From positions 1 through 64,000 of the forward strand of contig JAFSKV010000063.1 of NCBI GenBank assembly GCA_017448795.1: a stretch of 64,000 nt of DNA. Reading direction: 5' to 3'. This document shows, piece by piece, positions 53,199 through 54,265 of the stretch. The notes under the pieces were generated by a model. It was not told where the DNA came from. It did no database searches and saw nothing but the letters and a program-made list of their open reading frames with translations. The translations under genes and the position numbers were made by a program. This stretch comes from Synergistaceae bacterium. Its GTDB lineage: Bacteria; Synergistota; Synergistia; Synergistales; Aminobacteriaceae. Each line of letters begins with the position of its first letter. Position 1 is the first letter of the stretch.

Positions 53199-53780
53199 TT
53201 GAGACACACTGCCGCGCTGATACTGCCCTATTACGGGACGCTGCCGAATTACTTTCCTTTGTGGCTGAAGTCCGCGGGGGCCAACCCTGATTTCACGTTC
53301 ATGCTGTTCACTGACTGCGACATGTCGGGCTACAACGTCCCGGAGAATGTGAAGGTGATTCACCTGACGTTTGAGGGGCTGAAGAAGCTCATTGCGCCGC
53401 ATCTGGATTTCCCGTTCGTCCTTGAGACCCCCTACAAGCTGTGCGACTACAAGCCGATGTACGGGCTGATCTTCCGGGACTGGCTGGAGGGCTATGACTT
53501 CTGGGGGCATGTTGACCCTGATATTGTGTGGGGGGACTTGGGACGCTTCATCACGGATGACCTCATGGACAACTACGGGAGGCTGTACAGGCGGGGGCAT
53601 CTGACACTTTACCGCAACACGCCGGATGTGAACGGTTTTGCGCTTCACGGGCTTCCGGGCTGGAACATATCGTACAGGGACGTGTACAGGACGGGCAAGT
53701 ATGCCGGGCTTGACGAGAATGTGCTGGCGGAGCGTCTGTTCAGCAGATTTGCGTACGGGGGGGGGGGCAATATTACGTAG
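53199..53780 (+). CDS. Phase-variable DUF6625-like glycosyltransferase 1, N-terminal part (OFF as sequenced)
   Basis: TTG start with AGGAGG 8 bp upstream. The 193-residue frame holds the N-terminal transferase part: ILPYYGTLPNYFPLWLKSA, FMLFTDCDMSG, and the acidic HVDPDIVWGDLGRFI block with a DxD that would bind metal and nucleotide sugar. A G11 tract (53757-53767) follows and the frame then ends at TAG within four codons. With G12 or G9 it runs on to 54265 as one protein of about 355 residues. Assignment to DUF6625, a family often in capsule loci, is from recalled pattern. Confidence 0.8.
   Translation: MRHTAALILPYYGTLPNYFPLWLKSAGANPDFTFMLFTDCDMSGYNVPENVKVIHLTFEGLKKLIAPHLDFPFVLETPYKLCDYKPMYGLIFRDWLEGYDFWGHVDPDIVWGDLGRFITDDLMDNYGRLYRRGHLTLYRNTPDVNGFALHGLPGWNISYRDVYRTGKYAGLDENVLAERLFSRFAYGGGGNIT
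53757..53767 (+). repeat. Poly-G tract (G11) inside glycosyltransferase 1
   Basis: Eleven consecutive G residues encode a poly-Gly turn. G11 puts a stop codon 12 bases downstream; G12 or G9 reads QYYVADCADVW and on. Confidence 0.9.
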
Positions 53781-53794
53781 CTGACTGCGCGGAT

Positions 53795-54265
53795 GTGTGG
53801 CCTACCTACCTTCAGTTCCGATGCCTCTCCAACGACGGCAGCGACACTATCCCCGCATTAAGATGGAAACGCGGAAATCTTTACGGCCTTTCCCTCAACG
53901 GCGAGTCAGGACACGACAAGGAATATCTCTACGTCCACCTTCAGAAACGCGCAATGACTTTCCCTCCCGGTCTCGAAAAAGAAGACAGCTTCATGATAAA
54001 TCCTAACGAATTTGTGAGAGACCACGAGCTTACCCAAGAAGAAATCACCTCATTCATCACGCCAAATCCAGAATACGAACGCGCCATGAGAGTCAAATAC
54101 AGCTGGGGCATCAGGAAGACTCCGCTCCAATGGTTAAGATCATTCTTTGCGAGCGATTTTGCGTATAAGCGTCTCAGGCTCAAGGGGCTGATGAACAAAA
54201 TCTTTGGCAGGAAACTCGCCAGCATGTGGGAGGAAAAAGGCGTAAGACCTACATACCTAGCATGA
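53795..54265 (+). CDS. Phase-variable DUF6625-like glycosyltransferase 1, C-terminal part
   Basis: The frame that follows the G11 tract, with no Shine-Dalgarno of its own, so it is translated only if the tract shifts. It holds LRWKRGNLYGLSLNGESGHDKEYLYVHLQKR, matching the C-terminal half of glycosyltransferase 2, and ends in a basic amphipathic tail (LQWLRSFFASDFAYKRLR) that could bind the membrane. Confidence 0.7.
   Translation: MWPTYLQFRCLSNDGSDTIPALRWKRGNLYGLSLNGESGHDKEYLYVHLQKRAMTFPPGLEKEDSFMINPNEFVRDHELTQEEITSFITPNPEYERAMRVKYSWGIRKTPLQWLRSFFASDFAYKRLRLKGLMNKIFGRKLASMWEEKGVRPTYLA

Follow-up and report, generated by a model that had tools for sequence, protein, structure and literature searches.

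Poly-G tracts as probable length switches of two tandem DUF6625 genes in rumen Synergistaceae, and a 16-bp element upstream of most tracts of the genus

Genes A and B, two tandem DUF6625 genes of a Synergistaceae bacterium, are each broken in frame at a long poly-G tract, and we consider it probable (about 0.83) that they are two loci of a genus-wide poly-G slippage phasome in rumen Synergistaceae, with tract length setting DUF6625 ON or OFF. During replication, the G-run would gain or lose bases by strand slippage. A tract length that aligns both halves of the gene would give the full DUF6625 protein, and a wrong length would lead to a translation stop, as a rule few codons past the tract. 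Slippage within a population and an ON state of DUF6625 are presumed here, and surface-related genes would probably be flipped on and off at random by tract length.

Results

Two tandem DUF6625 genes are broken at poly-G tracts

The window, that is, the whole stretch of 64,000 nucleotides that was analyzed, carries the two genes with the following features.

53199..53767, + strand: gene A, 5′ part including the tract; DUF6625, TTG start behind AGGAGG
53740..53755, + strand: gene A, 16-bp tract-associated element TCAGCAGATTTGCGTA; LLR 8.3, ends 1 nt before the tract
53757..53767, + strand: gene A, G11 tract; frame off across the tract
53768..54265, + strand: gene A, 3′ part in a shifted frame; DUF6625 C-terminal region
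54323..54897, + strand: gene B, 5′ part including the tract; tandem DUF6625 paralogue of gene A
54867..54882, + strand: gene B, 16-bp tract-associated element TCAGTAGATTTACTCT; LLR 7.7, ends 3 nt before the tract
54886..54897, + strand: gene B, G12 tract; frame off across the tract
54898..55341, + strand: gene B, 3′ part in a shifted frame

The upstream frame of gene A ran from the TTG at 53199 to a stop at 53780, and the downstream DUF6625 frame lay in a different phase. The PF20330 profile matched the N-part of gene A with an E value of 5e-65 (profile positions 1–173) and its C-part with 2e-10 (184–265). The scores were 220 + 41 bits for gene A and 218 + 42 bits for gene B, with all four halves above the Pfam gathering cut-off of 27, and both tracts mapped between profile positions 173–175 and 184–210. 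The initial annotation had described gene A as intact but for a break exactly at an 11-G tract, and the G11 at 53757–53767 with PF20330 matches on either side confirmed this; its frame arithmetic, in which G12 or G9 gives one ORF of about 355 codons, was also right. It had further matched the frame after the tract to the C-terminal half of the paralogue. The match itself holds (53% identity between the C-parts and 62% between the N-parts, same Pfam family), but the reference paralogue, gene B, is itself frame-broken, by its G12 at the equivalent place. Both halves were open in both paralogues. A and B were the only DUF6625 copies in their own assembly, and both were OFF in the assembled consensus. 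A second allele of gene B was sought in viral contigs, and none was found there.

Just upstream of gene A, 81 bp from the end of a gene that we take to be queA-like (52978–53058) were repeated at 53081–53161 with 99% identity. This duplication may be a remnant of the event by which the DUF6625 pair arrived at the locus.

The product had been labeled a DUF6625-like glycosyltransferase. Its DUF6625 part is borne out by scores above the Pfam cut-off, and the glycosyltransferase part rests on weak fold matches. The family carries no functional assignment. The structure of an intact Clostridia homologue was modeled (8 sequences, mean pLDDT 63), and the model was weakest at residues 187–210, roughly aligned with the tract region. 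Matches of this low-confidence model to the PDB reached a best E value of 0.003, with none at or below 0.001. Nearly all of the best 50 were glycosyltransferases, all weak, and DPD was present in the sequence. A search of solved structures by the DUF6625 sequence gave nothing useful. On the basis of the modeled fold, DUF6625 is probably a GT-A type glycosyltransferase, and the putative enzyme probably acts on a surface glycan.

Long G-runs are in excess in the window, the assembly, and the genus

In the window, G11 had three overlapping matches versus 0.03 expected, and none of 100 dinucleotide shuffles reached three. The run-length distribution is discontinuous: G-runs of lengths 4–8 numbered 320, 113, 33, 7, and 1, followed by a jump to one run of 11 and one of 12. 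The assembly to which the window belongs contained 31 G-runs of at least 9 (105 overlapping matches), with 5, 4, 6, 9, 4, and 3 runs at lengths 9 to 14 and a modal length of 12. The phylum was surveyed in 120 genomes of at least 90% completeness, 30 in the genus and 90 others. G-runs of at least 11 were present in 27 of the 30 genus genomes (median 8, maximum 51 in G034; median and split taken by hand) and in 34 of the 90 non-genus genomes, where the maximum was 11 and other genera mostly had none or few. Among named relatives, the closest are Synergistaceae MAGs recovered from the rumen and reticulum of goats.

The tract genes included those for glycosyltransferases, a capsular polysaccharide synthesis protein, a GDSL hydrolase, an MBOAT acyltransferase, an EcoRI-type adenine methyltransferase, a radical SAM/SPASM protein, SDR/epimerase enzymes, thiamine-diphosphate enzymes, large BACON-domain lipoproteins, a CotH-domain protein, an Ig/LRR protein, and an amino-acid permease. 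Many of these belong to the surface or envelope classes commonly seen in phase variation.

Several individual tracts were also recorded. The gene for the EcoRI-type adenine methyltransferase (L035; G000 contig C6, tract at 4038) had a G12 near its 3′ end together with a high-scoring copy of the element described below, and this methyltransferase is possibly phase-variable. In four genes for large lipoproteins (L044, L047, L055, and L124), some with weak leukocidin-family or BACON matches, the tract came soon after the likely lipobox cysteine, so that switching would remove nearly the whole lipoprotein. L104, L105, L108, and L110 (in G008 and G006) shared another recurrent context, consisting of a T-run, AACTT or similar, the G-run, and a TACAGC-like sequence, located where very long open frames begin. 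G003 contigs C202 and C207, among others, started or ended within a G-run, as though assemblies break at variable tracts.

Reading frames across the tracts fit free slippage

Frames were scored with a codon model that had been trained on the window. Only tracts that were clearly coding on both sides were kept, the others having no clear frame. This gave 34 of 74 tracts (hand count) in the first set and 17 of 62 in later genomes, 51 in total. Among the 51, 17 were in frame and 12 and 22 were in the two wrong frames (chi-square p = 0.23 versus equal thirds), and both ON and OFF lengths were therefore present among the tracts of the system. Random length drift predicts one third in frame and a programmed shift does not, and the observed 17/12/22 thus fits free slippage.

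Wrong frames stopped early after the tract, with a median of 4 codons versus 12 elsewhere in the same genes (p = 6e-9, 34 tracts), and no such effect was seen upstream of the tracts (p = 0.22). Replication of the early stops was uneven: G049 gave p = 1.5e-4 (4 tracts), G025 p = 0.064 (4 tracts), and G024 p = 0.37 (9 tracts). In gene B, one wrong frame stayed open for 58 codons.

Sequencing and assembly both struggle with long G-runs, and assemblies do break at them, as 7 of 150 listed tracts begin less than 100 bases from a contig start, where about 1 would be expected (hand count). The true lengths might then all be in frame and the assembled ones miscalled. However, systematic error would not yield 17/12/22 with one third in frame, interrupted tracts, described next, are out of frame as well, and the runs are too long for chance regardless. 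We regard homopolymer miscalling as very improbable.

All tract-bearing DUF6625 copies are out of frame

Nine tract-bearing DUF6625 copies were found in seven genomes, with tracts of G11, G12, G11, G9, G10, and G8 and three interrupted runs (G033, G034, and G035). All nine, including the interrupted ones, were out of frame; seven were shifted one way and two the opposite way (p = 0.026 for 9/9 under equal frame odds); an in-frame tract copy was looked for among these nine copies in seven genomes, and none was seen. A further G003 copy was left out of the count, as its G16 lies at the very contig end and its downstream frame is unreadable. Three tract-less copies (G005, a second G003 copy, and G040) were open through the tract site; the G003 one had an unrelated break of the frame at a more upstream position, and a run of N stood there in the record of G040. 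The uniform OFF state may be due to chance, may mean that the gene is mostly OFF, or may hint at recoding, and the three interrupted tracts should slip little.

Recoding would mean that transcriptional slippage or ribosomal frameshifting at the G-run yields a fixed full-length fraction while the DNA length stays constant. The nine OFF copies, seven of them off in the same direction and with downstream halves still recognizable, are what would favor it, but two copies are off in the opposite direction, and all three phases occur among the 51 coding tracts, with 17 in frame. Together with the properties of the upstream element given below, this makes recoding an unlikely explanation; RNA polymerase slippage may add some ON product. 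The same 9/9 count and the out-of-frame interrupted tracts could instead mark A, B, and the three homologues with interrupted tracts as early pseudogenes. Against such decay, the tract is the sole break in A and B, about 150 codons 3′ of it are still open and recognizable, and there are other tract genes in this genome that do read in frame. We therefore think it improbable that gene decay explains the breaks.

The reading as a phase switch is thus supported and widens to the genus. The slipped-strand contingency locus proposed in the initial annotation gains support from the tract excess across the genus, the length differences among homologues, the 17/12/22 frames, and the surface or envelope kind of the genes.

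A 16-bp palindromic element lies upstream of most tracts of the genus

The flanks of the early tracts were strikingly similar to one another. Look-alike flanks were removed before counting (123 to 112, 64 to 51, and 65 to 52 tracts). TAC[GT]NA occurred at most 20 nt upstream in 22 of 51 tracts, versus 4 of 51 at −40 to −20 and 0–1 of about 50 at eight offsets further up, and it was missing from most shorter G-runs. Expectation-maximization on the 112 de-duplicated tracts gave a 16-bp degenerate palindrome, TACGTAAATTTACnTA, with a log-likelihood of 265 versus 51 for shuffled flanks. The PWM exceeded 4 in 67 of 112 tracts, an in-sample and therefore optimistic figure, and 64 of these 67 hits lay 0–4 nt before the run, versus 0–4 of about 112 at nine other offsets. 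Cross-validation provides the fair figures: with the matrix fitted to three genomes and applied to three others, 22 of 58 held-out tracts were above the 99% control threshold (0.6 expected), and the reverse gave 22 of 54 (0.5 expected). The arm spacing GYA-N4-TVC was found at 40 of 123 tracts versus 4 of 369 control windows. In the genome of the window, GYANNNNTACNNANNNNGGGGG had five matches, all at runs of at least 9, and the backward control had one. The association of tract and element is statistically secure, and most tracts of the genus lie 0–4 nt behind the element. TpA was enriched in the tract flanks; TpA-rich flanks as the full explanation were rejected, as the specific 16-bp model fits the upstream side. 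G008, of the same genus, had tracts without the element (0 of 7).

The element might be a by-product of AT-rich or Gly-loop coding context and not a functional site. It is degenerate in its weights, common descent accounts for its sharing within some families, and in DUF6625 it partly coincides with a conserved Phe-Ser. However, its core, TAC[GT]NA, was present in 22 of 49 tracts versus a GC-matched mean of 1.56 (maximum 7), and the association holds with the look-alike flanks removed. Furthermore, the element is rare at short runs (PWM above 4 at 1–2% of G3–G6 and 2 of 33 G7–G8 runs) and in other genera (1 of 29 tracts in six of them), and it also occurs at non-coding tracts; with the in-sample matrix, it was found at 47 of 71 tracts with long open frames on both sides and at 27 of 52 others. 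It was present in 34 of the 51 clear coding tracts, in all codon phases (14, 16, and 4), and all four third-phase (phase-2) cases had C at position 5, which avoids the in-frame stop that a T there could create. A DNA signal accommodated within a reading frame is expected to behave in this way. These observations leave the by-product explanation little likelihood.

Nature and settings of the element

Covariation of the dyad pairs was no better than in column shuffles (p = 0.99), and the RNA fold of the element was unstable (mean MFE −0.6 kcal/mol). An RNA hairpin driving slippage was rejected on these two grounds, which also speak against recoding and make a dimeric protein site likelier than an RNA structure. 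The element is probably a protein-binding site.

All nine tract-bearing DUF6625 copies carried the element (scores 5.8–8.3), whereas none of the three tract-less copies did (at most 1.7). In the capsule-synthesis family, tract copies carried the element and a tract-less G049 neighbor matched less well; two members (L276 and L253) had good element matches without a tract. By eye, tract and element replace, and do not lengthen, a variable linker in Caps_synth and MBOAT homologues, and the DUF6625 tract copies gain about two codons. A mobile cassette carrying tract and element was rejected, as no clean insertion was seen by eye in Caps_synth, MBOAT, or DUF6625.

Strict motif matches also occurred away from tracts. 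At six loci fetched by a strict-pattern match, the same palindrome was followed, about 40 nt downstream, by a −10-like TAATATAT and by a long conserved leader that precedes an SLH-domain gene whose protein matches the NCBI iron-uptake-porin model below its cut-off; similar palindromes were listed in other genomes of the genus. The leader before the SLH-porin gene (L277–L282) is long, about 280 nt, and well conserved, and an Rfam search of these porin-promoter loci returned nothing at an E value of 0.05 or better. This setting suggests that the element there is the site of an outer-envelope regulator. Ten G024 sites away from the porin locus and from the listed G11 tracts were fetched, of which five adjoin G7–G10 or C-runs and five do not. 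The repeated matches in G041, of which one was fetched, resemble by eye a stretch of conserved prepilin codons. In L158 and L177 (G024), tracts lay in apparent promoters, with element-like arms, the G-run, and then a TATAAT some 15 nt further on, an arrangement that suggests spacing-dependent switching of transcription.

The element may influence how readily the tract slips, control transcription across or close to it, or designate the sites at which tracts form. Tentatively, and at clearly less than even odds, we propose that a predicted sequence-specific DNA-binding protein on the palindrome favors the formation, maintenance, or instability of the poly-G run 0–4 nt downstream. A portable cis signal, and not just the length of the tract, would then pick the switchable genes, and the SLH-porin site would be an ordinary regulatory target.

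Discussion

The results assign a large poly-G phasome to a rumen family that has received little study. If the element acts on the tracts, local mutability would be set by a bindable DNA signal; the founding and upkeep of contingency loci, an old question, would become directly testable, and the 16-bp signal would serve as an address label of a new type, marking the genes that can switch.

The Lrp consensus is an AT-centered palindrome with GYA...TRC arms, and the element resembles Lrp/AsnC operators in both respects. It differs from them in a spacing of 4 rather than 5, and PF01037 (Lrp/AsnC) was found in 0 of 43 genus genomes (control rings 11/14). An Lrp/AsnC regulon site was rejected on the absence of the cognate protein from these 43 genomes.

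The poly-G and poly-C loci of Campylobacter, Helicobacter, and Neisseria share with the present system the many long G-runs in or near surface and glycosylation genes, the ON and OFF states set by length, and the three-frame logic. The present system belongs to a different phylum (rumen Synergistaceae), and most of its tracts have the 16-bp palindrome upstream. We know of no common element of this kind in the contingency loci of those three genera, and none of the literature matches listed pointed by title to a shared tract-flanking element in known contingency systems. No paper combining "phase variation" and "Synergistaceae" was found in a literature search of partial coverage, and "Synergistetes" was absent from the looser matches listed.

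The closest precedent is Bordetella, in which the annotated G11 of bapC is out of frame, as is the G11 of gene A, and G10 and G12 also occur in the same culture (PMC1891110). Homopolymeric tracts there are coding in bapC and tcfA, and those of the fim promoters adjoin an activator region; that region concerns promoters, whereas the element described here also adjoins tracts inside coding sequence (PMC1891110). The C-terminal switching of Helicobacter canadensis likewise involves tracts of G10 or longer, situated late in genes, whereas the DUF6625 tracts lie mid-gene and an OFF length would lose more than 40% of the protein (PMC2823697).
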